DNA of 64,000 nt from Defluviitaleaceae bacterium. Its GTDB lineage: Bacteria; Bacillota; Clostridia; Lachnospirales; WQUN01. The position numbers were made by a program, and so were the translations under genes. Shown one piece after another: positions 7,334 through 57,536 of the stretch. Where the stretch lies: NCBI GenBank assembly GCA_009779755.1, contig WRDO01000008.1:1-64000 (forward strand), read 5' to 3'. Numbering within the stretch: the stretch's first letter is position 1; each line of letters begins with the position of its first letter. The notes under the pieces were generated by a model. The model was not told the DNA's origin. It worked only from the letters and a program-made list of their open reading frames with translations, and searched no databases.

Positions 7334-8764
7334 ATGAATCTATCTGAATTGTCCCTGGTGGATCTAAGGGAACGGGCGAAAGCGTTCGGTTTGAAAAGCA
7401 TAGCCAAGTATCGCAAAGCGGAACTGGTCGAGTATATAACCGAACAGGAAAAATCCCCAAAAAAACCACCCAAACCCAAATTACCCAAGCCGGATACTCC
7501 AAAACCGGACCTTCTTAATCCCGACCCTCCCAAACAGGATCTTCCTAAGCCCGACTCTTCCAAACCCGAACCTCCCAAACCCGAGCTTCCCAAACCCGAG
7601 CCCCCAAAACCCGAACCCCCCCAAGAATTTACCGAAGGGATATTGGAAATCCTGCCCGACGGTTACGGTTTCTTACGGACGGAGAATTTTTTACCCGGGG
7701 CAGGGGACATCTACGTTTCGCCTTCACAAATAAGGCGGTTCCAGCTGAGGACGGGTGATTTGATCTACGGGCCCATCCGCAACAACCCCACCGAAAAATT
7801 TAATGCCATTCTCTATATAAAGGAAGTCAACGGAAACGCGCCGGAAACGCCGACACGCCGTATATCTTTCGAACAGCTTACCCCGATCTTCCCCGACAAA
7901 CGTATAACGCTGGAGTCACCCACCGCACCCACCGCGCGGCATACCCTCGCACCGCGGATTATCGACCTGCTTTCACCCATCGGTTTCGGCCAGCGCGGAA
8001 TGATCGTATCCCCGCCCAAAGCGGGTAAAACCATGTTGCTTAAGCAAATTGCCAATGCCATCACCAAAAACCATCCGCATGTCCACTTGATCGTATTATT
8101 AATAGACGAACGCCCCGAGGAAGTCACCGACATGCAACGCTCCATCGTGGGCAAAAATTGCTCCATCGTATATTCGACCTTCGATGAACAACCGGAAAAC
8201 CATAAACGACTGGCCGAAATGGTGCTGGAACGCGCAAAGCGTATGGTGGAACAAAAAAAGGACCTCGTTATTTTACTCGATTCGATTACGCGTTTGTCTC
8301 GTGCGTACAACCTGTTGATACCCGCAGGCGGGCGTACGCTTTCGGGCGGGCTCGACCCCGCGGCCCTATATATGCCCAAAAAATTCTTCGGAGCGGCGCG
8401 TAACGTGGAGAACGGCGGCTCGCTGACGATACTCGCGACCGCGCTTGTGGAAACGGGCAGTAAGATGGATGACGTAATATTCGAGGAATTTAAGGGAACG
8501 GGTAATATGGAGCTCGTACTGGACCGCCGCATGGCGGACAGGCGCGTATTCCCCGCCATCGACGTGCTTAAATCCGGCACGCGGCGGGAGGATTTGCTGC
8601 TTTCGTTGGAGGAGCTTGATGCGATGTACACTTTGCGCGAGCTTTCGGGGCGCGTAAGTAATACCGAGTTTACCGAGCAAGTCGTCGATATCTTGGCCAA
8701 GACGAAAAACAACAAGGAATTCGTGGGCAGCATCGCGGATTTGAGGCCGGTTTTAAACAAATAA
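7334..8764 (+). CDS. rho: Transcription termination factor Rho with Pro/Lys-rich insert
   Basis: A 476-residue hexameric RNA helicase for factor-dependent termination. The start at 7334 gives the usual MNLSEL opening, with AGTGGGA 6 bases upstream; GTG 7322 and ATG 7328 are alternatives. Residues 1-36 are the Rho N-terminal helical domain. Residues about 40-98 are an unusual linker of repeated PKP(D/E) units. The OB-fold RNA-binding domain follows (about 100-165, GILEILPDGYGFLR), then the ATPase core. Walker A is PPKAGKT (about 228), Walker B is VILLDSITRLSRAYN, and the Q/R-loop region is standard. Insert-bearing Rho proteins are known in several phyla; this insert is highly repetitive. Confidence 0.95.
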   Translation: MNLSELSLVDLRERAKAFGLKSIAKYRKAELVEYITEQEKSPKKPPKPKLPKPDTPKPDLLNPDPPKQDLPKPDSSKPEPPKPELPKPEPPKPEPPQEFTEGILEILPDGYGFLRTENFLPGAGDIYVSPSQIRRFQLRTGDLIYGPIRNNPTEKFNAILYIKEVNGNAPETPTRRISFEQLTPIFPDKRITLESPTAPTARHTLAPRIIDLLSPIGFGQRGMIVSPPKAGKTMLLKQIANAITKNHPHVHLIVLLIDERPEEVTDMQRSIVGKNCSIVYSTFDEQPENHKRLAEMVLERAKRMVEQKKDLVILLDSITRLSRAYNLLIPAGGRTLSGGLDPAALYMPKKFFGAARNVENGGSLTILATALVETGSKMDDVIFEEFKGTGNMELVLDRRMADRRVFPAIDVLKSGTRREDLLLSLEELDAMYTLRELSGRVSNTEFTEQVVDILAKTKNNKEFVGSIADLRPVLNK

Positions 8765-8781
8765 CAAAAGGTGTGTCGGCG

Positions 8782-9993
8782 TTACGCTACATACCGCAAG
8801 CGGATATCCGTATCGTTTTCAGGCAGTAGGATCGTCACTTCCATACCGGGGCTAAGGGTTAGCCCCTTTTTTGCGTCCGTTTCCATATAATCCTTACGGA
8901 AGGTAAAGAGCGGATGCTTACAAGTGAGTAATAGCTGCGGCTTGTGGGATGGCGTATATGGGGAGGGTGTGAGGATGACCTTATCGAGTTGTGCGCCGCC
9001 GCCGTGAAGGGCGCGAAGCGTCGTCCGCTTGCCGTAAGCGATGAGGTTATGGTGGCGTGGCTTGCGGTCGGAGGATTCGAGGATGATCTTCCCCGTAAAA
9101 ACGCGGCTACGCCTTCGTATAAACAATAACAGGAAAATCAACTTTGACACTGCGGACCCGCCAAGGATAATCGTCGCACGCAGCCGTGTTTGATGGGGAG
9201 CGGAATCGGGGGGTTCCGTCGGGTGATACGCCGGCGGAATGGAATGGTCACCATAGGAAGCGGAGATTGCCGTTACGGCTTCCGGTTGCCGTAGTTCATC
9301 ATCGATGAAAATCATATAACTTTGTTCGGGTTGCGGGGATAATAAAATCGCCAATATATCATTTATAATGTCGTTCAACGCTTCGGCGGTCGTCGTTTCG
9401 TAGGAGCGCCCGCCCGTAGCGGAAGCAATGCTGTCTATGTAAGCGCGGTTTAACGTCCCGTTATGGTTGAGCCCGACGGTATGGATCAAGACGTTTTTAT
9501 ATGCGGCATATGCGACGACACGTTCGAGGTCGGCATACGCATCCGCATATGTGCGCAGGGAAGCGGGGGAGATTTCCATATTTCCGTCGGTCAACAGGAT
9601 AATGAAGGGTATGGGGTTTGCGTTATTTCCTTCGATCAAAATATGTAAGGCTTTGTCCAAGCCAAGGCTGTGGTCCGTCCATCCCGCATGTCCCAAGCCG
9701 TTGATGAACCCCCGTATAATATCAGCGTCCTCTAAACCATAAATCGCCGTCAGGGGTATATAATCCACCACTTCCCCCGCATACGCGACGACGCCCACAC
9801 GGTCGCCGCTATACGTCCCCAACGCATCGATAAATAACCCCATCGCTTCCTGCGCCAAACGGCCGGGATCGGTATGGCGCATGGAGAAACTGACGTCCAA
9901 CACCAACACCGCATCAATGGGTGCACGTTCGGCAGATACATGGGTTTTGGTAAAGCAAACGAATAATAATAAAACAATGATGACCTTTCTCAT
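8782..9993 (-). CDS. Secreted/membrane von Willebrand factor A domain protein
   Basis: A 403-residue protein. The ATG at 9993 is preferred because GGGGGAG lies 6 bases before it and the protein then opens with a signal peptide (residues 1-21, ending THVSA). The vWA domain (about 25-215) keeps the metal-ion-dependent adhesion site: DVSFS (Asp33-Ser37), a Thr in the middle loop, and LLTDGNM. A transmembrane helix near residue 285 (SAVSKLIFLLLF) is followed by RRRSR and a C-terminal cytoplasmic domain of about 100 residues that I do not recognise. It is convergent with rho. Likely a cell-surface adhesion or assembly factor; partner unknown. Confidence 0.75.
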   Translation of the reverse strand: MRKVIIVLLLFVCFTKTHVSAERAPIDAVLVLDVSFSMRHTDPGRLAQEAMGLFIDALGTYSGDRVGVVAYAGEVVDYIPLTAIYGLEDADIIRGFINGLGHAGWTDHSLGLDKALHILIEGNNANPIPFIILLTDGNMEISPASLRTYADAYADLERVVAYAAYKNVLIHTVGLNHNGTLNRAYIDSIASATGGRSYETTTAEALNDIINDILAILLSPQPEQSYMIFIDDELRQPEAVTAISASYGDHSIPPAYHPTEPPDSAPHQTRLRATIILGGSAVSKLIFLLLFIRRRSRVFTGKIILESSDRKPRHHNLIAYGKRTTLRALHGGGAQLDKVILTPSPYTPSHKPQLLLTCKHPLFTFRKDYMETDAKKGLTLSPGMEVTILLPENDTDIRLRYVA

Positions 9994-10895: not shown

Positions 10896-13448
10896 ATGGC
10901 TAAGTTTACGGCGGTTATATCCTGCGGGGATGATTTTAACAATCTTATTGAAGCATTAGATAAACCCTTACATCCGCAAGCGGAACGGGTGTTGTTATAC
11001 AGCGGTGACATACCCAAGCGTTTTGAGTTCCCCGTTAAGGCAATCGAAAGGCTGGATGCACTACGCGCCGGTGAGGGTGGGCGTCTATTCATAAATCCAA
11101 ACAATGAAGAAACATGCAATGAAATCGTTACGTACATAAACCAATGTAATGCGGATATCATATTCTTCCTCGAAAGCGGACAAGTCCTTCCTGATCTTTG
11201 TTTTGAATATATTGAAAACTTCTTTGATACCCACTGCGATCGTTGCGGTGTTGTTTTTCTTCCGATTGTTGATGACGGAGAAACACCCTTGCCGGAAGAA
11301 TTCCAAAACCTGCCTCCGGGTGGGTTGTTTGCGTTTGACGATAATATCGGGACCTTCCCTTCAAGAGAAGCCGGCGCGGCAGTGCGGTTGGATGATATTC
11401 GCACCGTTGGATTAAATCCATCCTTTGTTTCCAAAACCTTCTTGGACATGCTTACCCGCGTAGCGAAGAAAAAAGGTACCTTTGGTTGCATAAGGGAAAC
11501 GGCAATCATACAAGGCGCAAAGCCACCGGAAGTTTTAACGCCGATGAACGTTAATTCCTTAGTTAACGTCGTTATTCCGGTTTCGAAAAACGTAAACGAA
11601 AAGCACCTCGATGAAACAATCGAAAGTATTGTCAATCAATCTGCCGGGTTTGATAATAATACACGGTTAGTTTTCGTTGGTTCCGCTACCGACGAGAGTT
11701 TTGAAGATATTTTCAACCGGTACCACGAAAAATACCCGGCAAACACGGTATGCACTCTTATAAAAGGGATGGATTATGCATCTGCGCTGGAAGCCGGTTT
11801 GTTTGCTTCCGACGGTGAATTCGTTTTATTCGCTGACCCCGGATATATATATGAACAAAACTTCTTGCAAACCGGATTGGAATTATTGAACGCGCACAAA
11901 AGCGAAATAAACTTCGTCGCTTTTCCTATGTATTCAGAGAATACAGGTACACCCCATCCTCTTAATTACCGCTTCCAAAATCCCGGTATTGTATGTTTGA
12001 AAGAAAACCCCTCTTTTTTCCAACTAAGCACAGCCGGTACGTTAATTTTAATCAAAGCGATAAACAGCATCAGTATTCAATCCTCGGTAGCAGGTGGCGA
12101 AACGATCGAAATGATGTACGAATTGGCAATCGAAAAAATGAAGTATGGCGTATCGAATAAATCCTGCGTATATTTCAAAATGAATGAAGACACAAACATT
12201 GAAGTAGACAGTAAGTGGCTATATGGCTTAGCCGTTCTTGTGGAACGCATGGTGAAAACGTCCCTTGAACGTTTCACCTATCTCCCCATGTACACACAAA
12301 CCCTTGTTATATCGCTTTTACAACATAAGCATGTGCTTAACTCCGAAATACCCGATGATTTATTAAACACTGAAGCACTAAGTATATTAAAAAACCTTAT
12401 TAATTATTTTGATGATGAATTAATAATTAACGCTAAAGGATTTTCAGATTTTTATAAATGTTATTTATTGCAATTAAAACACGGTCCGCCGACTCTTTTA
12501 TTTGATATCAATGGAAATGGCACTTTTTGTTTTAACAATACGTTCAAAAAGCAAATAAATAAAAGCATCCAACTGGTTTCAATAAATTGCGAAAATGGAT
12601 GCGCCAACATATCCGGTTGGTGGCGTGCGGTAAACTACGACCGACTTAATGTAATTGCTGTATACAACGGTAAAACCTTCAAATCCAATCTTACGGATGA
12701 TATATATAACGCTATATGCATTTTTGGCAATCTTGTAAACAATTCGTATTTATTTAACTTCAACATCCCGTTTGAAAAAGAAGGGAATATTTCATTCTAC
12801 GTAGAAGCTGACGGTTGGGGAAGATATCCGCTCACCCTAAGCTTCACATCGCGTTGCAGGTTGTCTAAGGAACCGGGTTCATTCGTAATTAGCGATAAAA
12901 CCATAATAAAACATGCGGATGGTAATTCGTTGTTCATAAGTGACAAGTTTTCCCATGCGACATTGATTGCGGAACATAAGCCTTTGGAGGTGATGCTATT
13001 TAGTAATTATCTAAGCATCCTTTCCCAATGGAAAAATAGACGTATATGGCTTTTTCTAAGTCAAAGTGACGAAACGGAAAATGCATTGATGCCATTATTC
13101 CATTTTTGTGCTTCGGAAAATGACGGAACAGAAAAATATTACGTAACGCATAATGTCGAATCCGGTGATTCTTTGCCCGACAATGTTGTTAAATATAGGT
13201 CGGACAAGCACAAATTACTTTCCTTGTTTGCGGAGAAGGTAATCTCAGTCGATTTACGGGAATTCGCTAACATTCCATACGGCAAAAAAGAAAACCGACA
13301 ACTCTATACCGGGCTAATCCGAAGCAAATTTATTTTAATGCATACGGAAGAAACCGATACGAAATATCTTTTCCCCGGCACATTTGCCCTTATTTGCCAA
13401 TTGGACAATAACCATATGGAAATCTACAAAAAGGTGATAAAATGTTGA
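10896..13448 (+). CDS. Large glycosyltransferase-like protein with TagF-like C-terminal fragment
   Basis: An 850-residue protein. ATG 10896 follows GGGGAGG (10883-10889) by 6 bases. Residues about 1-200 and 218-450 each resemble GT-A (GT2) folds, but neither shows a DXD motif: the equivalent strings read FFLESGQVLPD and LFADPGYIY. A middle beta-rich segment (about 540-680) has no name I can give. Residues about 705-850 (RRIWLFLSQSDE, VVKYRSDKHKLLSLFAEKVIS) match the opening of CDP-glycerol glycerophosphotransferases (TagF/TagB). The protein ends where their catalytic half should begin. It is probably involved in surface polymer assembly, either as a scaffold or as a decayed enzyme. It is first in the glycan operon. 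Confidence 0.65.
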   Translation: MAKFTAVISCGDDFNNLIEALDKPLHPQAERVLLYSGDIPKRFEFPVKAIERLDALRAGEGGRLFINPNNEETCNEIVTYINQCNADIIFFLESGQVLPDLCFEYIENFFDTHCDRCGVVFLPIVDDGETPLPEEFQNLPPGGLFAFDDNIGTFPSREAGAAVRLDDIRTVGLNPSFVSKTFLDMLTRVAKKKGTFGCIRETAIIQGAKPPEVLTPMNVNSLVNVVIPVSKNVNEKHLDETIESIVNQSAGFDNNTRLVFVGSATDESFEDIFNRYHEKYPANTVCTLIKGMDYASALEAGLFASDGEFVLFADPGYIYEQNFLQTGLELLNAHKSEINFVAFPMYSENTGTPHPLNYRFQNPGIVCLKENPSFFQLSTAGTLILIKAINSISIQSSVAGGETIEMMYELAIEKMKYGVSNKSCVYFKMNEDTNIEVDSKWLYGLAVLVERMVKTSLERFTYLPMYTQTLVISLLQHKHVLNSEIPDDLLNTEALSILKNLINYFDDELIINAKGFSDFYKCYLLQLKHGPPTLLFDINGNGTFCFNNTFKKQINKSIQLVSINCENGCANISGWWRAVNYDRLNVIAVYNGKTFKSNLTDDIYNAICIFGNLVNNSYLFNFNIPFEKEGNISFYVEADGWGRYPLTLSFTSRCRLSKEPGSFVISDKTIIKHADGNSLFISDKFSHATLIAEHKPLEVMLFSNYLSILSQWKNRRIWLFLSQSDETENALMPLFHFCASENDGTEKYYVTHNVESGDSLPDNVVKYRSDKHKLLSLFAEKVISVDLREFANIPYGKKENRQLYTGLIRSKFILMHTEETDTKYLFPGTFALICQLDNNHMEIYKKVIKC

Positions 13449-14749
13449 ATTTATACGAAAAATTGAAAAACCGTGACGAAAAACTTGCCGTGGTTGGGTT
13501 GGGTTATGTAGGTATGCCACTCGCCGTCGAATTTGCGAAGATGTTGGACGTTATAGGCTTTGACATAAATCAAGCAAAAATCGAAAGTTATAAAAACGGC
13601 ATAGACGTTACCGGCGAAGTGGGTAATGAAGCGCTTGCCGTAACATCCGTGCATTTCACTTACAATGAACGTAACTTGCGCGACGCCGCTTTTTATGTGG
13701 TAGCCGTACCCACCCCCATAAGCGATGACAAGCGCCCTAATTTGTTTCCCGTCGAAGAATCCAGTCGTGTAGTAGGTAGGAATATCAAACCCGGTTCTGT
13801 AGTCGTATTCGAATCCACCGTATACCCCGGCGTTACGGAAGATGTGTGCGTACCCATTATCGAAAAAACATCCGGTTTGGTGTGCGGTAAGGATTTTTGG
13901 GTCGGATACTCTCCGGAAAGAATCAATCCCGGCGATAGGGTAAACACGCTAACCAATATAGTAAAGGTCGTATCCGGCATGAATACCGAAGTTTTGGAGC
14001 TCGTGGCCAAGGTATATGAATTAATAATCGAAGCGGGTGTTTTCCGCGCTTCCGGCATAAAAGTGGCGGAAGCCGTAAAAGTTGTTGAAAACGCACAACG
14101 CGACGTAAACATAGCCTTCGTAAATGAACTAGCCCTCGTTTTTGATCGTATGGGTATCGATACCAATGAAGTGGTGGACGGAATGAACACGAAGTGGAAT
14201 GCGTTGGGCTTCCGCCCCGGATTGGTGGGTGGCCATTGCATAGGTGTTGACCCTTATTATTTTATATATGAAGCCGAACGACTTGGTTACCATAGTCAAA
14301 TCATCCAATCCAGCCGGCGTATAAACGATTCCATGAGCGAATTTGTGGCAGACAGCACCATCCGACAGATGATATATAACGGCGTAAGGATTAAAGGTTC
14401 GAATGTGGCGGTGTTGGGTTTCACTTTTAAAGAGAATTGCCCGGATACGCGCAATACGAAGGTTATTGACGTAATCAACGGATTAAGAAATTATGGTGTT
14501 AATGTATATGTAAATGACGAAGTCGCTGATCAACGTGAAATAGATGAACATTATGGATTAAAATTAATAAATATAAAGGAAATGCCAAAAGTGGATTGCG
14601 TTGTTTTGACAGTAGCACACGATGGGTATTTACAAATGACACAGGAATATTTAATTTCCATGTTTAAGAATAATGCCCCCATTGTATTTATAGATGTAAA
14701 AGGTATTTTTCGTGGAAAGTTAAATGTAGACGCTTACTGGAGCTTATAG
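13442..14749 (+). CDS. tviB: Nucleotide-sugar 6-dehydrogenase (TviB/WbpO type, UDP-HexNAc to uronate)
   Basis: A 435-residue NAD-dependent UDP-sugar dehydrogenase. It has the N-terminal Rossmann motif VVGLGYVGMPLAVEF, VAVPTPI, FESTVYPG and YSPERINPGD. The catalytic cysteine sits in GGHCIGVDPYY (about residue 262), and the C-terminal domain has GFTFKENCPDTRNTKV. The SPERINPGD and KENCPD strings fit the TviB/WbpO branch, which oxidises UDP-GlcNAc or UDP-GalNAc, better than UDP-glucose dehydrogenase. Substrate choice is inferred. It overlaps the preceding gene by 7 bases and supplies a uronic-acid donor to the glycosyltransferases downstream. Confidence 0.9.
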   Translation: MLNLYEKLKNRDEKLAVVGLGYVGMPLAVEFAKMLDVIGFDINQAKIESYKNGIDVTGEVGNEALAVTSVHFTYNERNLRDAAFYVVAVPTPISDDKRPNLFPVEESSRVVGRNIKPGSVVVFESTVYPGVTEDVCVPIIEKTSGLVCGKDFWVGYSPERINPGDRVNTLTNIVKVVSGMNTEVLELVAKVYELIIEAGVFRASGIKVAEAVKVVENAQRDVNIAFVNELALVFDRMGIDTNEVVDGMNTKWNALGFRPGLVGGHCIGVDPYYFIYEAERLGYHSQIIQSSRRINDSMSEFVADSTIRQMIYNGVRIKGSNVAVLGFTFKENCPDTRNTKVIDVINGLRNYGVNVYVNDEVADQREIDEHYGLKLINIKEMPKVDCVVLTVAHDGYLQMTQEYLISMFKNNAPIVFIDVKGIFRGKLNVDAYWSL

Positions 14750-14760
14750 GGAGTTGTTTT

Positions 14761-17145
14761 ATGAATGACTTAACTTTAGGGTTGCCAATAGTCGGAGATG
14801 TAAAAGCGATAAGCCCCGTACTTCGCAAAAAAACGATTTCCATTGTTGAACGCAATCCAAAAATTTCAATAATCACCACTGTTTATAATATGGAGGAATA
14901 TATCGATGAATCTATTCTATCATTAAGAAACCAACAGTTGGAAAATCCATATGACATAGAAATTATTACAGTGGATGATTGCTCAACCGATGGTACATTG
15001 GCGCGCTTGCGTGAACATAGTTTGTTGGATGATCGGGTAAGGATAATAGCTTTTGATGAAAATAAATCGGTTAATCAAGCGCGTAAAGCTGCAGTTATGG
15101 CAGCTAATGGCACTTATATTATGTTTGTGGATGGCGATGATACACTTGATAGAAAAGCATGCGGTAGTTTGATATTGGAAATGGAAAAATATAATGTTGA
15201 TATTCTCCATTTTTGTATGAAGTTTATTTCTGCATATGACAATGAAGAAAATCGATTAAAAGTTGAAAAGTTTAATAACAAAAAAGACTTGTCTGATATT
15301 TTATTAATTGATAATACAGATGATTTTACAATACTCAAATACAGGTATTCTAGTGATGAAGCAATAACGGGTTTTTTAGGAACTTTAACAGCCAATTTAT
15401 TTAATTCTGATATTGTTAAAAAGGCATATGAACACATTTTAGATGTCCCAATTCATAGAGCCAGTGACACTTACGCGCAGTTTTTAATTATGTATTATGC
15501 AAAAAGCTATAAAAAACTGCTTCGTGCATCTTACACATATTATTTTTATTATTATGGTAGAGGTGGATATGGTAAGTCATCATACGATTTTAAATGGTTT
15601 AAAATGCTTTGCACTAAAGGCATTATAATTACTGCATTAAAGGCATTTCTAATAAAATTTGAACAGTTCGAAAATCTTCAAAATATTTTTTATACTCTTG
15701 AAAACAATATGATAATGCCGGTTTTTAATGAATATAATAAAATCAATAATGAAAATGAAAAAAAATTATATTTTAACTGTATGACAAAATATTTTGAAAA
15801 GCAACTTATCATTGAAAAACTTGCATATACAAAATTTAATAATGCATATAACATTACAGAAGCATTAAAAAATACTGATATGTTGGGTGTAAAAAAAGCG
15901 AAGCGAATTAAAGTTATAGGTGCGTATTATACTTCTATTTCAGGTGGCGGTGCTCAAAAGGTTACATGCATGTTGTGCGATTTATGGGTATCAATGGGAT
16001 ATAATGTTGTTCTTTTCACAGATTCTGAACCTAACATTGATGATTTCCCATTATCCGATTTTGTAAAGCGTGTGTTTTTACCTGATTCAACGCATAAAGC
16101 AAAAAAATATCCAATTCGAATGAAAGCATTATTATATGCTATTACATTATACAAGATTGATGTTTTTGTATATCATAGATGGCTTTCGCCAATTCTTTTT
16201 TGGGATGTAATTTCAATAAAATCATTAAATATACCTGTAATATTGTATACACATGGAATTTTTTCTAATAATTATTTAAATGCTTCTGAAACATTCTTTT
16301 TATTAAGTAAAATTGTGTCATATATTGATTGTTTAGTAGTTTTATCTAGAGTTTGTTACGCATATTGGTCTGCATTTTGCAAAAATATAAAAATTGTTGA
16401 AAATCCTCATCTATTTGATATTAATAATATAATTCATTCTAAGCTAACAACAAATAATATATTATGGATTGGTCGTGTAAGTCATGAAAAATTACCGGAA
16501 CAAGCTCTGCAAATAATTAATATCGTATCAAAAAAAATTCCTAGTGTTAAAATGTATTTGGTTGGTACAAAAAATAACAATGACCCATATATTCAAAAAT
16601 TAATGAAATATGTAAAAGAAAATTATTTAACAAATAATGTTTTTTTTATAGATTTTACGAACAATGTAAAAAATTATTATCAAAATTCAGATATAATGCT
16701 TTTAACTACAAAAAGTGAAGGATGGTCGCTTTCAATAATGGAGGCAACGATGTATGGGTTACCAATAATATGTTATGACATGCCCTATCTAGAAATGATT
16801 AGAAGGCATAAAGGTAGTATAATAACTGTTCCACAGAATGATGTAAATGCCGCTGCGGAAGCAATCGTAGATCTTTTAGTAAATAGAAATAAACTTACAG
16901 AAATGGGTAAAAAATCATTATTTTTAACTAAGCAATTATTAAATTATGACATAAAAAGTACATGGAAAAATATTTTCGATAGTGTTACTGAAGGAAAAAC
17001 CAATAAACCTCAATATATTCCAACCAATGATGATTACAAAATTATGATTCAAACTTTAGATCATCATAGTGAAGGTATTTATAAAAAAATAATAGAACAT
17101 CGTGAATATAAAAACGAATTAAATAAATTAAAAAATTCTTTGTAA
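14761..17145 (+). CDS. Bifunctional glycosyltransferase: GT2 fused to GT4
   Basis: A 794-residue fusion; AGGGAG lies 7 bases before the ATG. Residues about 35-330 are a GT2 domain with ISIITTVYNMEEYIDESI, ITVDDCSTDGT and the DXD-like FVDGDDTLD (about 122). Residues about 378-760 are a GT-B fold GT4 enzyme with SGGGAQKVT, WIGRVSHEK and the EX7E-type KSEGWSLSIMEATMYGLPI. It ends in a basic tail. The first residues, MNDLTLGL, resemble the MNDLAYGL start of the GT at 19959. Base composition becomes strongly AT-rich inside this gene from about 15.2 kb, a sign of different ancestry. It probably adds two sugars in succession to a capsule or S-layer glycan. Confidence 0.85.
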   Translation: MNDLTLGLPIVGDVKAISPVLRKKTISIVERNPKISIITTVYNMEEYIDESILSLRNQQLENPYDIEIITVDDCSTDGTLARLREHSLLDDRVRIIAFDENKSVNQARKAAVMAANGTYIMFVDGDDTLDRKACGSLILEMEKYNVDILHFCMKFISAYDNEENRLKVEKFNNKKDLSDILLIDNTDDFTILKYRYSSDEAITGFLGTLTANLFNSDIVKKAYEHILDVPIHRASDTYAQFLIMYYAKSYKKLLRASYTYYFYYYGRGGYGKSSYDFKWFKMLCTKGIIITALKAFLIKFEQFENLQNIFYTLENNMIMPVFNEYNKINNENEKKLYFNCMTKYFEKQLIIEKLAYTKFNNAYNITEALKNTDMLGVKKAKRIKVIGAYYTSISGGGAQKVTCMLCDLWVSMGYNVVLFTDSEPNIDDFPLSDFVKRVFLPDSTHKAKKYPIRMKALLYAITLYKIDVFVYHRWLSPILFWDVISIKSLNIPVILYTHGIFSNNYLNASETFFLLSKIVSYIDCLVVLSRVCYAYWSAFCKNIKIVENPHLFDINNIIHSKLTTNNILWIGRVSHEKLPEQALQIINIVSKKIPSVKMYLVGTKNNNDPYIQKLMKYVKENYLTNNVFFIDFTNNVKNYYQNSDIMLLTTKSEGWSLSIMEATMYGLPIICYDMPYLEMIRRHKGSIITVPQNDVNAAAEAIVDLLVNRNKLTEMGKKSLFLTKQLLNYDIKSTWKNIFDSVTEGKTNKPQYIPTNDDYKIMIQTLDHHSEGIYKKIIEHREYKNELNKLKNSL

Positions 17146-17190
17146 AATTACAAAATTATAAATTAAAATATATTTGGGGAGGCAATAAAT

Positions 17191-19941
17191 ATGTCTAATT
17201 ATGTTAAAAAAGAGGATTTCGATAACCAACCAATAAATGAAACATACAAATACCAATATACGACACGATGGGATTATTATTCAGAAGTAGTAGAGTTGCT
17301 CGAATCCTTTAATGATGTAGGTCCAATTTTAGAACTAGGACCCAGTGATTTAGCAATTTCATCAACCTGTGATGTTATGGTGAAGCCACTAGCAATATTG
17401 ATATTACCACATAATACATCCGGCAAAATAATAGAACATGATGCTACATCTACACCATGGCCTATTGATAATAAAGAATACGATGTTTTTGTATCGTTGC
17501 AAGTATGGGAACACCTTGGAAATGCTCAGGTTAATGCCTTTAAGGAAGTTATACGTGTTTCTAAGAGAGCTATTTTAAGTTTTCCATATAAATGGAAATG
17601 CGCTCCCGACAACTGCCATTATATGATAGATGAAAGCAAAATATCCGAATGGACGTGCGGCGTCCAACCCGCTAAAAAGATTATTGTTCCGGGAAACAAT
17701 AGTACAAAAATAATATATTATTATGAATTTGATAAACACTTCCAACCGGAAGTTGTTTTGTCAATTAATGAAAATAAGCTATATTGTAAAATAATCAATC
17801 ATGATTATTATAATGGTCTTTATTCATATGAATTGTATCATAATAATTCAATTGTCATGGGGTCGCAAATCGAAACGAATGATAAACACATGTATTATTA
17901 TATAAACGGATATGGAAATTATCAAGTTGAAGTAAAATTTAATAAATTATCCGATAAAATAAAATCCAATTATGTGTATGGGTATTCGAATGATATAAAA
18001 AATAAATATAATATTTTTACTGACGATTTATCTTATAATTCCATTCCAAAACTTAAATATGCTTATAATACCTACCCCTTTACGGAAATAGCGTTTGTTA
18101 TTACAAAAACGGATTTGTCCCGTAAAATATTACGTTCAGAGTTTTCAAAACTTAATGGTTTTAATTTAAAAGAAATAATACAGTCAGGAAAAAGAAAATT
18201 GCATATTATTTCATCATGTATAATTAATAATGACTTGGAAGAAAATTCATTTGCATTTTCGGGAATCACAAAAATAACTGATAAACTTATAATTGGTCAA
18301 AAAGATGTGGCTGCTAATGTATCCAATGTTCGTTTACTGCATGATGAAATAGGTGATTTTTCTTTGTTTCACTTTAATAAATATGGTGCAGAAGCACGGA
18401 CTGATTATTTTGGGGTTTCAAGAATATATCATTATGAAGATGATGAATTTATAATCATAATTAATAGTTACCATTTAATATTACTCTTCTTACGTTTACT
18501 TGACGTTCGCTTAAAATTAAACGACCGTAAAGTAAATGCCACTTATCATTTTTCAGGAAATCCTATTTTACAACACAATATATCTTGGCATATGGAAATT
18601 TTTAATGTTCGACAATTACAGGCAGACTACGCTATTAAAATATCGCAACAACTCATACCGGAATTCGTTAAAACTCAACTTTACGATGATCTGAGAACGC
18701 CTCTTTCATTTGAATTAAATGAATATGAAAAAATATTGTTTAATGCAAAAAATGAAATAATAAATAATGTCAAGGTAGCCCTGGAACATCCTGCGTTTGA
18801 ACATATTGTTTTAGATTTGACGGGCGGTTTAGATAGTAGAACCGTATTTGCAGCTTTAACAACTTTACCGATTTCTTTACAAAAAAAAGTTAGAATAAGA
18901 ACATTTGCTGATAACTCTGATTTAGAAATTTCATCAATTATGGTAAACATGTATGATTTTGATTATGAAGATTTTCCAACGGTAAGAAACATTGATTGGG
19001 CTGTAAACTTTGAAGAATATAGACAAAGTCAATTTTTGGGGCAATATTTTGCTTCACAACATTATGAAATATTAAGTCCCGTTGATTCTATTTTACTTTT
19101 AGGTGGTCGTATGGGAGAGGTAGTCGATAAATGCTTTTATATAACAAAGAGTACTTCATTTGATGAATGGAAGGAAAATACATTTAATGTAACAAATGGT
19201 CGGAATATTGTTTCAAATGGAATTAATAATGTTTTATATGAAGGTGGACAAAATGATTTTCAAGAAGAATTCAAAGAATATTTTATGCTTGCAGGCGGAA
19301 ATACCACAGCTGAAACATATGACCAGCATTTTATGTATTTTTATAATTCTTATCATTTTGGGGGTACACTATACACAATGTTATATGCACCTATATTTTC
19401 ACCGTTAATGTCAAAATCTTGTTTAAAAGCTAAACGGATGGGTTTTCCTCACGTTAAAACATTTTATGATTTAATTCCCATGATGAACCCACTGTTAGCC
19501 ATAGTTCCATTTGTAGACATTGAGCACAATAAACGAAGGGAAAGAATATCAGAGCTTCCCTATACCCGTGGATATCCCAACGCCGATATAATTCCCAATA
19601 CAAGTAGAGATAAATACAAAGCATCACAAACTAAAAAATATACTAATATTAAATATGAACCCTCAAATGAAATAGTAAATGATGAAAGAAAAAAAAGCAT
19701 ACATTCTTATCAATCAAAAGAACCTATTATAAATATGATTCGTGCAATATTATCAAGTTCACATAACGTGCAACATTTGGGTCTATCCTTCTTCGCATGG
19801 TCACAAACACTGGATGATGATGTGTTCAAGTATAATTATCAAGCCCGAACGTTTATAAGAAAAATAATTTCTTTTTATCGAACGATTGAAATATTGGATA
19901 TGAAACCTGATGATGCACGAAATGCGTTGGTAAAAAAATAG
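17191..19941 (+). CDS. Fusion of class I methyltransferase and asparagine-synthetase-like domain
   Basis: A 916-residue protein; GGGGAGG lies 9 bases before the ATG. Residues about 40-160 look like a small SAM-dependent methyltransferase: ILELGPSDLAI as motif I, then YDVFVSLQVWEHLG and KRAILSFPYKW. A beta-rich middle (about 165-300) follows. Residues about 380-880 resemble the asparagine-synthetase architecture: a degenerate Ntn-like beta region lacking an N-terminal catalytic Cys, then an ATP-pyrophosphatase P-loop in DLTGGLDSRTVFAAL (about 544-556). Such domains can adenylate a carboxylate and form an amide. In this island the target could be a uronate made with the upstream dehydrogenase. 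The fusion and its AT-rich composition are unusual; function is inferred. Confidence 0.65.
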   Translation: MSNYVKKEDFDNQPINETYKYQYTTRWDYYSEVVELLESFNDVGPILELGPSDLAISSTCDVMVKPLAILILPHNTSGKIIEHDATSTPWPIDNKEYDVFVSLQVWEHLGNAQVNAFKEVIRVSKRAILSFPYKWKCAPDNCHYMIDESKISEWTCGVQPAKKIIVPGNNSTKIIYYYEFDKHFQPEVVLSINENKLYCKIINHDYYNGLYSYELYHNNSIVMGSQIETNDKHMYYYINGYGNYQVEVKFNKLSDKIKSNYVYGYSNDIKNKYNIFTDDLSYNSIPKLKYAYNTYPFTEIAFVITKTDLSRKILRSEFSKLNGFNLKEIIQSGKRKLHIISSCIINNDLEENSFAFSGITKITDKLIIGQKDVAANVSNVRLLHDEIGDFSLFHFNKYGAEARTDYFGVSRIYHYEDDEFIIIINSYHLILLFLRLLDVRLKLNDRKVNATYHFSGNPILQHNISWHMEIFNVRQLQADYAIKISQQLIPEFVKTQLYDDLRTPLSFELNEYEKILFNAKNEIINNVKVALEHPAFEHIVLDLTGGLDSRTVFAALTTLPISLQKKVRIRTFADNSDLEISSIMVNMYDFDYEDFPTVRNIDWAVNFEEYRQSQFLGQYFASQHYEILSPVDSILLLGGRMGEVVDKCFYITKSTSFDEWKENTFNVTNGRNIVSNGINNVLYEGGQNDFQEEFKEYFMLAGGNTTAETYDQHFMYFYNSYHFGGTLYTMLYAPIFSPLMSKSCLKAKRMGFPHVKTFYDLIPMMNPLLAIVPFVDIEHNKRRERISELPYTRGYPNADIIPNTSRDKYKASQTKKYTNIKYEPSNEIVNDERKKSIHSYQSKEPIINMIRAILSSSHNVQHLGLSFFAWSQTLDDDVFKYNYQARTFIRKIISFYRTIEILDMKPDDARNALVKK

Positions 19942-19958
19942 TAATATGGAGTATATTC

Positions 19959-21509
19959 ATGAATGACTTGGCATATGGTTTACTTTTACCCGAAATGCGC
20001 AAAAATAATAAAATATTTCATCAGATAAAGAAGGTGTCAATCGTCATCCCCGTGTACAATACCCGAATAGATTTACTATCGAAATGTTTGGACAGTTGCC
20101 TCACCCAAAGCATGGCGGCAAAGGAATATGAAATAATCATAGTGGACGATGGTTCAAATAATATTGAAACGCTAAATTTGACCAAAAGATACACGTCCAT
20201 CCATAAAGAAAGGATAAATTATCGTATTCTCCCCAAAAACAGAGGAGCATCAATTGCCAGAAATACCGGTATAGATATATCTGTGGGCGAATACATTTTT
20301 TTCGTGGACAGCGATGATTTTATCGGTAAAGAAGCCTTGGAACGTATGTACAACTTGGGAAAGTCAAACAATGCGGATTTGATCAACGGGCGGTTTGAAA
20401 ATGCGGGCTTAAACCGGTGGGTACCCAAGTCGGGTGATGTTGATATCGGGCTCACAAGGCCTACTGATCCGCAATTGATACAAATATCAAATTCATGCCG
20501 CATGTTCCGCAGGGAAGCGATACTGGAGCAGGGTTTGCGTTTCGATCCCAAGTTGAAATCAGGGCAGGATTCTCTTTTCGTTTTTTCTTTTATCGCCAAC
20601 GTGACCAGAATAAGTTTTTTAAACAGTTATCCGTGTTATTATGCAGTAGGTCATGATGCCGAGCATTTGCATTTTACGAAATTGTCATTGGATGAATATA
20701 TCTACTTTTTCGAAACGGCGTTCAAGAATATCTACGCGTCAAGCGTATTATCCGCGTCGGATTTACATAATATTGCCTCCGTACGCTTTGCATCTTTATT
20801 TTCACGGTTTAACAAGGATTTGTTTAATGATGACGTCACAGAAACCGATAAAGTGAAAGTTTTTAAAAGATTGGTAAAAGCGGTTAAAAACGTGTTGCCG
20901 ACATCCGTTGACGTACATGTGTCCGGGCTTGCGTCAATGAAGCTCATGGCATTACGGGCAAACTCGTTTCAAGCATATATGGAAACCGATCGATTGGATA
21001 CATTCCGAACTAAATCGATTATAAAGGATTCGCAAAGCCGTTTTTTATTTTATTTACTAAAAATCAGGGAAAACCTTGATAAATACATTATTGTGATCGT
21101 ATCATCGAAAACTATAGTAGCCGAAAATTACAAATCATACAGCCCAAAACCATTGTTAAAAACAATGAAATATATATTTGGGTTAAAAACCAATTTAGAT
21201 GAATTGCATGGGTATGGATATATCGCGGTCATTGGCGACAAAATCGGTTCCAAGGAATTTATTTCCGTTGACACCAAAACGCCGGTACTGCACATTTTAA
21301 AATTAAAGAATAATAACATCAATATTACAAGTGTTCCCCTTAACATTGCTTCAACGGATATTAAATCATCGGTAATCATAAATAAAAAGAATTATATCGT
21401 AGGTTCGCGGGGCTTACATTTCGTTGTGCTGGATAGCGAAAACGGAACTGTGGTAGAAAGCTGTAATTATGACACGACATTATCGAATGTTAATTTTATA
21501 ATGGGTTAA
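19959..21509 (+). CDS. GT2 glycosyltransferase with ILEI/FAM3-like C-terminal domain
   Basis: A 516-residue protein; GGAG lies 8 bases before the ATG. Residues about 25-260 are a GT2 domain: VSIVIPVYNTRIDLLSKCL, IIIVDDGSN, RGASIARNTGID and the DXD FVDSDDF (about 114). A helical region follows. Residues about 411-516 carry YGYIAVIGDK, INKKNYIVGSRGLHFVVLD and VVESCNYDT. This pattern matches the interleukin-like EMT inducer (ILEI) fold of animal FAM3 proteins, which also occurs in some bacterial glycan proteins. The domain may bind glycan. Base composition moves back toward the chromosomal average here. It closes the glycan operon. Confidence 0.78.
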   Translation: MNDLAYGLLLPEMRKNNKIFHQIKKVSIVIPVYNTRIDLLSKCLDSCLTQSMAAKEYEIIIVDDGSNNIETLNLTKRYTSIHKERINYRILPKNRGASIARNTGIDISVGEYIFFVDSDDFIGKEALERMYNLGKSNNADLINGRFENAGLNRWVPKSGDVDIGLTRPTDPQLIQISNSCRMFRREAILEQGLRFDPKLKSGQDSLFVFSFIANVTRISFLNSYPCYYAVGHDAEHLHFTKLSLDEYIYFFETAFKNIYASSVLSASDLHNIASVRFASLFSRFNKDLFNDDVTETDKVKVFKRLVKAVKNVLPTSVDVHVSGLASMKLMALRANSFQAYMETDRLDTFRTKSIIKDSQSRFLFYLLKIRENLDKYIIVIVSSKTIVAENYKSYSPKPLLKTMKYIFGLKTNLDELHGYGYIAVIGDKIGSKEFISVDTKTPVLHILKLKNNNINITSVPLNIASTDIKSSVIINKKNYIVGSRGLHFVVLDSENGTVVESCNYDTTLSNVNFIMG

Positions 21510-56055: not shown

Positions 56056-56907
56056 ATGACTTTCCCACGTACGATGGTTGGGGGTATTTCGATGCCCCGC
56101 ATGTTAATCGGTACGAATTGGCTGGCGGGGTGGAGCCATCGTTCGCCCGCGGCGGACAAGATGATCAAAAACCTGCACGCCGAACCGAAAAGCATCGTGG
56201 ATGTTTTACAGGTCTACTTGGACAACGGTATCGACGCGTTGATGGGGCCGATGGGCCGCGTACCCGCTATCGACAAGGCCGTAAAGCAGGCCGAGGACAA
56301 AACGGGTAAAAAACTCATCATCATCGATACACCCATCGTAAACGTCAACGATTCCGCCGAGGCCCGCGCCGAAGCCATGGAAACCTTCAAGCGCAGCAAA
56401 TCCTTCGGTTCGACCTTTTGTTTAATCCACCACTCCAGCGCAGAGGAGTTGGTGGATAAAAACGCACGCGTCCTTAAGCGGTTGGACGACTATACGAAGA
56501 TGATACGCGACTGCGATATGCTCCCCGGCCTTTCCGCCCACATGCCCGAATTAATTTCATATTCCGACGATAACGGGTACGACGTGGAAACCTACATCCA
56601 AATTTATAATTGCCTTGGCTTCCTCATGCAAATCGAGGTCGAAACGATCGCATCCATCATCCATAACGCCAAGAAACCCGTAATGACGATCAAACCCATG
56701 GCCGCCGGGCGTTGCACGCCTTATGTGGGGTTAAACTTCGTTTGGGCCACCTTACGCGAATGTGATATGGTGACCGTAGGCGCGCACATGCCCGATGAAG
56801 TGCATGAAAACATCGAAATCTCCCGCGCATTCTTCGAAAAACGCTACCCCGATCTGGAAAAACGCTCCAGCCCCAACATGAACCAATCAGCGTTCGGTAA
56901 TGCCTAA
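56056..56907 (+). CDS. Unrecognised 283-residue protein, possibly a TIM barrel
   Basis: AAAGGAG (56041-56047) lies 8 bases before ATG 56056; ATG 56050 is too close. The protein alternates predicted strands and helices (VDVLQVYLDNGIDALMG, KKLIIIDTPIVNV, STFCLIHHSS, KPVMTIKPMAAGRC), which suggests a beta/alpha barrel. Conserved-looking residues include IIDTP, IHHSS and TIKPMAAGR. I cannot name a family. It is divergent from rbsK, so a link to the sugar operon is possible. Confidence 0.6.
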   Translation: MTFPRTMVGGISMPRMLIGTNWLAGWSHRSPAADKMIKNLHAEPKSIVDVLQVYLDNGIDALMGPMGRVPAIDKAVKQAEDKTGKKLIIIDTPIVNVNDSAEARAEAMETFKRSKSFGSTFCLIHHSSAEELVDKNARVLKRLDDYTKMIRDCDMLPGLSAHMPELISYSDDNGYDVETYIQIYNCLGFLMQIEVETIASIIHNAKKPVMTIKPMAAGRCTPYVGLNFVWATLRECDMVTVGAHMPDEVHENIEISRAFFEKRYPDLEKRSSPNMNQSAFGNA

Positions 56908-57536
56908 GGTGCTGTTAAGGTAATCGGGAAGAAGTAATCCTCATAACCCTTCGCGTACCAATAGGGATTATGGCTCCAAACGTTTTTATGCAATTCTTCC
57001 CTGTTGACCCCGTGGTTTATGATGATTTGATCGAGTATGGCGATGTCCGCTTTGTCTTTTTCGCGCATTTTCCATTCGGGGCTGATAAGGCGGACATTAT
57101 TCTTAAGCGTGTAGGCCATTTCGATGCCGAATGTATAGGCTTTTACGCCGTAGAAGTCATGCGGCTCCTTGTCCATCCAATCATAAGGGAAAAAAACCGT
57201 GCCGCGCGGACCCGCGTGGTACCAATGGGCGATGCCGTCCACGTTCCGTATGGAATTAAACGTGGCGAGCGCATCGCCTTTTTTGATGGTCAGCATCCAA
57301 AAATCGGGGAGGTATTGCGTTTGGTAACCCAACGTTTCGTATCGGTTGATGAGTTCGGTGATATTTTCGTCCAGGTTTTCGGTGAAGCAATCGAGGTCGC
57401 CGTGTTCCCTCGTGAAGGAACCGTTAAGGATATCAACGGCGATACCTCCCCAAATAAACGACTTTAACCCCAATTTATCGGATACGGAAAAAATATCTTT
57501 CATAACATCGATGAATTTACGGTTGTGTTCAAGCAT
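56904..57536 (-). CDS. Nucleotidyltransferase-fold protein (LinA/AadA-like superfamily)
   Basis: A 210-residue protein with WGGIAVDILNG followed by EHGDLDCF, the G-G...D-x-D metal site of minimal nucleotidyltransferases as in lincosamide and aminoglycoside enzymes. The C-terminal half has YGVKAYTFGIEMAYTLKNN and a helical EKDKADIAILDQ. Substrate unknown; antibiotic modification is possible but not shown. It overlaps the SASA gene by 8 bases. Confidence 0.72.
   Translation of the reverse strand: MLEHNRKFIDVMKDIFSVSDKLGLKSFIWGGIAVDILNGSFTREHGDLDCFTENLDENITELINRYETLGYQTQYLPDFWMLTIKKGDALATFNSIRNVDGIAHWYHAGPRGTVFFPYDWMDKEPHDFYGVKAYTFGIEMAYTLKNNVRLISPEWKMREKDKADIAILDQIIINHGVNREELHKNVWSHNPYWYAKGYEDYFFPITLTAP

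Follow-up and report, generated by a model that had tools for sequence, protein, structure and literature searches.

What might one polypeptide do in a glycan locus when it begins as a methyltransferase and ends as an ATP-dependent synthetase? This question is raised by a 916-codon gene in a 64,000-nucleotide stretch of DNA from a Defluviitaleaceae bacterium (contig WRDO01000008.1, positions 1 to 64,000; hereafter the window). The initial annotation, made from the sequence alone, had described a single chain with a SAM-binding motif near one end, an asparagine synthetase-like P-loop near the other and no N-terminal cysteine for glutamine hydrolysis. It had proposed that this chain amidates and then methylates uronates of a surface glycan.

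The reading frame is uninterrupted, as had been claimed. It starts with an ATG that lies 8 bp downstream of the sequence GGGGAGG, and an in-frame stop codon is located at position 17164, 27 bp upstream of the start. Both motifs occur where they had been placed, ILELGPSDLAI at residues 46-56, where it forms motif I, and DLTGGLDSRTV at residues 542-552. The methyltransferase and the synthetase were thus recognized correctly, but two further domains had been overlooked, an Ig/FN3-like sandwich between the two and a degenerate Ntn domain in front of the PP-loop domain (Table 1).

Table 1. Features of the fusion gene and its neighbours in the window.
Feature	Position	Strand	Basis
GT2-type glycosyltransferase, 855 aa	10881..13448	+	
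Nucleotide-sugar 6-dehydrogenase, closest to TviB (UDP-GlcNAc C6 dehydrogenase), GGHCIGVDPYY present	13442..14749	+	
GT2-GT4 double glycosyltransferase, 794 aa	14761..17145	+	
Ribosome-binding site GGGGAGG	17176..17182	+	Sequence
Fusion protein (methyltransferase, Ig-like, Ntn-like, PP-loop synthetase), 916 aa	17191..19941	+	ORF, models, fold searches
Class I SAM methyltransferase domain, residues 1-183	17191..17739	+	Relatives, model, fold search
Ig/FN3-like beta-sandwich, residues 184-266	17740..17988	+	Model; fold search of model, Z ~9 against Ig/FN3 domains
Degenerate class II glutaminase-like (Ntn) domain without Cys nucleophile, residues ~293-500	18067..18690	+	AsnB profile, fold match, alignment
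PP-loop (Asn synthetase-like) domain, residues ~505-904	18703..19902	+	PDB profile, AsnB profile, fold matches
P-loop DLTGGLDSR, residues 542-550	18814..18840	+	Alignment of 21 cores
GGRMGE, residues 638-643, G-x-x-G-[E/D] loop at the position of AsnB SGExADE	19102..19119	+	AsnB profile, alignment
GT2 glycosyltransferase, 516 aa, starting 17 bp after the fusion gene	19959..21509	+	

The glycan context assumed for the gene was borne out, with same-strand glycosyltransferases and a dehydrogenase around it in the order GT2, dehydrogenase, GT2-GT4, fusion gene, GT2. These glycan genes (window positions ~12000-21500) have GC contents of 28-43% by gene, compared with 49% for the window and 50% for the flanks, and this AT-rich composition suggests a foreign origin by horizontal acquisition. 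The 855-aa GT2 protein is listed with TTG as its start codon and has a long, partly beta-rich-looking C-terminal part without assignment.

In the full-length AlphaFold model, residues 1-165 had a pLDDT of only ~30, with few homologs in the alignment. We used instead a separate model of residues 1-183, built on an alignment with 23 relatives from viral contigs, which reached a pLDDT of 91.7. A fold search with this model returned 539 PDB matches at E < 0.001; the matches listed were SAM methyltransferases (Z ~14-15.6, with NodS at 15.6), which identifies a Rossmann-like methyltransferase fold. By sequence, the domain scores just below the gathering score of Methyltransf_11 (PF08241; 19.5 versus 21.2 bits), and its close relatives L083-L086 and L090 score above it. 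Four of these stand-alone proteins (L084, L085, L086 and L090) are 34-42% identical to the domain, so the N-terminal motif is not a chance occurrence. Within motif I, an acidic residue (E/D) at position 48 and G50 are present in all 24 aligned sequences, and the other glycine expected in a classical motif I is variable in this methyltransferase family. The same alignment showed that Q104-x-x-E107-H108 is invariant and H143 nearly so. The best PDB sequence match of the domain is Hen1, whose metal site consists of E-x-x-E-H plus a later His. The window protein has Q where Hen1 has the first E, and its motif makes metal-assisted O-methyl transfer possible by analogy.

On IMG/VR contigs and in glycan loci, the methyltransferase domain has many stand-alone relatives of the Methyltransf_11 type (L083-L134, L016 and L022), which resemble it in the motifs LQVWEHL, SFPYKW and H..I....WT at identities of up to 42% but differ in being ~158-280 aa long and lacking a fused synthetase. 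On viral contigs of IMG/VR, such proteins form a large group (L083-L140, ~158-190 aa; for example L086, 4752-5246), and for most scanned proteins of this group there was no PHROGs family. One of them (L131, 491-1711) is joined to a glycosyltransferase-like region. The relatives in L016 (4889-7021) and L022 (~1375-1950) adjoin radical SAM-type genes, and in L016 glycosyltransferase genes also lie beside the methyltransferase relative.

For the synthetase core (residues 293-904), the predicted model showed an AsnB/beta-lactam synthetase fold in which both the glutaminase-like and the PP-loop halves are present. It matched TsnB9 (7ylz) best, at Z 16.2, ahead of 1q15 (14.5), 1m1z (14.4) and 1ct9 (13.4), so that AsnB and the beta-lactam and carbapenam synthetases are all among its fold matches, and at E < 0.001 only AsnB-type proteins were found. 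Between 385 and 484 residues could be aligned with 1ct9, 1jgt/1m1z, 1q15, 8sue and 7ylz. McjC was absent from the fold-match lists, an absence that has no bearing on kinship. When its profile was compared with one built from eleven AsnB proteins of clostridia, the core matched AsnB with a probability of 97.1% (E 6.5 × 10−11) over 281 columns, with 11% identity over the aligned columns. The PP-loop fold predicted by the initial annotation was thus recovered by both approaches, and the P-loop motif is not fortuitous. The C-terminal helices are too divergent for the catalytic Tyr-Glu dyad and Lys443 of beta-lactam synthetase to be placed, no counterpart of the catalytic Lys of AsnB (K449) could be located, and the hhalign alignment with AsnB ends near column 388.

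Conventional searches detect little of this kinship. A PDB profile search with the core gave asparagine synthetases as the only matches, and weakly (E 0.38), and phmmer with the whole fusion protein found no match in the PDB. PF00733 did not match the window protein and appeared in only one of 21 core relatives (E 0.092). For the core, no Pfam family was found at E 0.1 and no Pfam or NCBIfam family at threshold. The initial remark that the protein belongs to no named family therefore stands for the core but not for the methyltransferase, which is part of a widespread Methyltransf_11-type group. Elsewhere in the genome, contig C16 carries a second Asn_synthase match (56520-57194, 118 bits) in an open frame of 551 aa, and contig C11 encodes an ordinary AsnB.

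The single full protein recovered no related loci from genomes or viral contigs; it was a five-row core alignment that reached the relatives in GTDB genomes. This alignment identified 22 core loci, 4 of them on contigs of loci found earlier, and other searches contributed further genomes. The same core alignment found nothing in viral contigs, nor did tblastn against phage and plasmid records. We rejected as chance the matches in L005 (genome G052), which lies inside an RsmE-like ORF, and in L002 (E 0.08). According to the record titles, the hosts are Lachnospiraceae, Oscillospiraceae, Clostridium magnum, Bacilli, Selenomonadaceae, Succinivibrionaceae and others, with divergent cores in Methanosphaera and Desulfovibrionaceae.

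Across these relatives the ATP site is retained. D542, G545, G546, D548, R550 and D577 are invariant in all 21 aligned cores, which are only 14-29% identical to the window core overall, and 19 of 20 cores have G-x-x-G-[E/D] at positions 639-643. The signature D-x-[ST]-G-G-x-D-[ST]-R is kept in ~20 relatives, mostly clostridial. Such conservation at such low overall identity points to selection on the ATP site, and the possible loss of ATP-binding residues in relatives, which would have spoken against the initial annotation, did not materialize. The glutaminase half, on the other hand, is degenerate family-wide. No core relative has an N-terminal Cys nucleophile, a Met-Cys start or the MCG start of AsnB, and the Asn-Gly-Glu glutamine site of AsnB was not seen in the family. 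The Ntn-like domain is internal in the window protein, and throughout the family it either lies inside the chain or has tens of residues in front of it, so the lack of an N-terminal nucleophile noted initially is a family trait. The R-x-P-F-L-D helix of AsnB is apparently replaced by x-P-L-x-S-K, which suggests that the substrate pocket differs from that of AsnB.

The relatives differ widely in their fused regions; apart from DUF6270, the labels given here come from reading the sequences, without family matches. The core stands alone in L011 (644 aa), L035 (Clostridium magnum DSM 2767, 7860-9731), L037, L039, L041, L043, L045 and L047 and follows a beta-rich region like the Ig-like domain of the window protein in L031, L032, L033, L044 and L012. 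It is joined to DUF6270 in P0002/L014, to beta regions with a DUF6270-like region in L013, and to a hydrolase-like GSSxGG region and others in L036 and L052. In L050 and L051 it appears to carry a C-terminal class I methyltransferase-like region, a tentative label based on an IRX15/GXM match below threshold (E 0.012) and on the motif ILELGLGQTTKMISQ. The exact N-terminal methyltransferase fusion was found in the window genome only, among the genomes searched. With so many partners, the core looks like a mobile module that is recombined with different domains for glycan tailoring. Alpha/beta-hydrolase-like proteins with G-S-S-x-G-G occur as separate genes beside the core in L037 (3234-4382) and L043 (6499-7905), at the N-termini of L036 and L052, and in L033 (9975-11615); most lack a Pfam match, and Asp2 matched weakly in L033. 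Among the papers searched, none dealt with DUF6270 or an asparagine synthase-like polysaccharide protein.

Glycosyltransferases and Wzm/Wzt-type transporters recur near the cores, and so do nucleotide-sugar dehydrogenases, which lie within ~8 kb of the core at 12 of 23 loci including the window, a lower bound since several core contigs are short. In L011 and L043 the dehydrogenase is the directly neighbouring gene. As a control, we counted dehydrogenases within 8 kb of GT2 genes in 39 genomes of the order and found ~14 for ~160 genes among the matches listed, a rough number counted by hand from the best matches. The enrichment near the core is significant (Fisher test, p = 2.6 × 10−6) and persists when clades are collapsed (6 of 14 core loci, p = 0.002). 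This supports, without proving, a uronate as substrate of the core, as had been suggested; the amidation of this uronate followed by methylation, the remainder of that suggestion, we continue to infer.

We give about even odds (a probability of roughly 0.5) to the reading that the fusion protein is a bifunctional glycan-tailoring enzyme, in which a glutaminase-less amide synthetase for a uronate-containing glycan and a methylating activity share one chain. On this view the core has the asparagine synthetase fold but no working glutaminase, and its GGxDSR loop would hold ATP. The analogous enzymes AsnB, beta-lactam synthetase and CarA lead us to expect that it adenylates a carboxylate. The likeliest one is at C6 of a uronic acid (in the window cluster, an aminouronic acid) belonging to the glycan or to a precursor of it, and ammonia or a small amine would then attack the adenylate and displace AMP to form an amide. 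The N-terminal domain would O-methylate that sugar or an adjacent one, and E107, H108 and H143 may bind a metal for this step. Lying between the catalytic domains, the Ig-like domain probably positions the glycan or both of these domains. Counting against this reading are the core loci without a nearby dehydrogenase, the catalytic residues of AsnB and beta-lactam synthetase that could not be placed, and the altered R-x-P-F-L-D helix.

The choice of substrate is where another reading competes most directly. Instead of using a uronate, the core might couple an amino sugar to an amino acid or an amino-acyl group, or activate another carboxylate of the glycan, such as that of a lactate-type or N-acyl substituent, and we consider this possible though unlikely. 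The conserved ATP site would fit equally, and approximately half of the core loci have no dehydrogenase in the available flanks. DUF6270 and alpha/beta-hydrolase-like regions of an acyl-transfer type also occur next to the core or fused to it; such partners suit a uronate no better than an acyl or amino-acyl substituent and to that extent count against the former. The uronate is favoured by the excess of nucleotide-sugar dehydrogenases around the core and by the TviB-like dehydrogenase in the window cluster itself.

The remaining alternatives concern whether and how the core works. That it is a catalytically dead scaffold gathering tailoring domains would suit the many shuffled partners and the strong divergence from AsnB, but is improbable given an invariant P-loop and a nearly invariant G-x-x-G-[E/D]. 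We regard as quite improbable a glutamine-dependent amidotransferase with a glutaminase in trans or an unusual nucleophile: the Ntn-like domain is structurally retained, and an AsnB-type enzyme has been shown to use either glutamine or free ammonia (PMC13060819), but the nucleophile position lacks Cys in a domain that no longer begins the chain, the N-G-E site of AsnB could not be recognized, and a separate glutaminase is not a recurrent neighbour of the core. That two genes were merged into one by faulty assembly or annotation is barely credible, even though the exact architecture comes from one genome among those searched and from a draft assembly of 91 contigs. Against it stand the uninterrupted frame with a single start and ribosome-binding site, the similarly low GC content across the parts of the gene, the five relatives in which the beta-rich region and the core form a unit, and the separate fusion of a core with a C-terminal methyltransferase-like region in L050 and L051.

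Returning to the amide synthetase with methylation on the same chain, the presence of relatives in many other sugar-polymer clusters makes it probable that the fusion protein adds amide-linked decorations to surface sugars. A more tentative generalization, to which we give somewhat less than even odds, is that the core represents a family, so far undescribed, of amide synthetases that lack a glutaminase and tailor bacterial surface glycans. This family would have spread as its core was shuffled alongside methyltransferases, DUF6270 and hydrolases of an acyl-transfer-like kind, and the chain described here would make a methylated or N-substituted uronamide. AsnB-like proteins of glycan loci are readily annotated as asparagine synthetases or overlooked, and the core group, which matches no Pfam or NCBIfam family, is among those overlooked. 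If this proposal is correct, a glutamine-free amide-forming step would join the enzymes that decorate Clostridia surface polymers, the GGxDSR loop with an internal pseudo-glutaminase would provide a search signature, and the ~640-aa cores would be open to expression and assay.

Beta-lactam and carbapenam synthetases, among the top structural matches, share with the core the AsnB fold, a Cys-less glutaminase domain and an intact P-loop. The lasso peptide cyclase McjC likewise has an AsnB fold and a glutaminase domain without Cys. These enzymes act on small molecules or peptides and close rings, whereas the window protein belongs to a glycan locus and carries methyltransferase and Ig-like domains. 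The hydroxyamidotransferase TsnB9 (7ylz), the top structural match, is only ~8% identical to the core and functions in hydroxamate natural product synthesis. The core also matches by profile, over 394 columns, the AsnB-like proteins of L142 (654-2369) and L018 (844-2562, minus strand), which have Pro in place of the catalytic Cys (MPGFF start) and an SGGxD[ST]R loop but differ from the core in their normal AsnB size and N-terminus and in the absence of fused domains; they are another uncharacterised Cys-less AsnB group. The L018 protein apparently lies among glycosyltransferase genes.

Among glycan enzymes, the AsnB relatives WbpS and WbqG of O-antigen and A-LPS loci make uronamides (PMC7468200). 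The window protein resembles them in AsnB kinship, glycan locus and predicted carboxylate amidation; WbpS-type enzymes are AsnB-type amidotransferases, whereas its own glutaminase domain is degenerate and internal, its P-loop has DSR at the end and it carries additional fused domains. A cluster of Tannerella forsythia contains asnB, wecC and methyltransferases, and the glycan includes a methylated mannosaminuronamide (PMC6120980). In the Campylobacter jejuni capsule locus, Cj1438 is an ATP-dependent amide ligase for glucuronate fused to a GT2 domain (PMC11800397). Its C-terminal ligase is comparable to the window protein in the function proposed for the latter, through ATP-dependent amide formation on glucuronate and fusion to a glycan enzyme, but it uses serinol-P or ethanolamine-P and lacks a methyltransferase.
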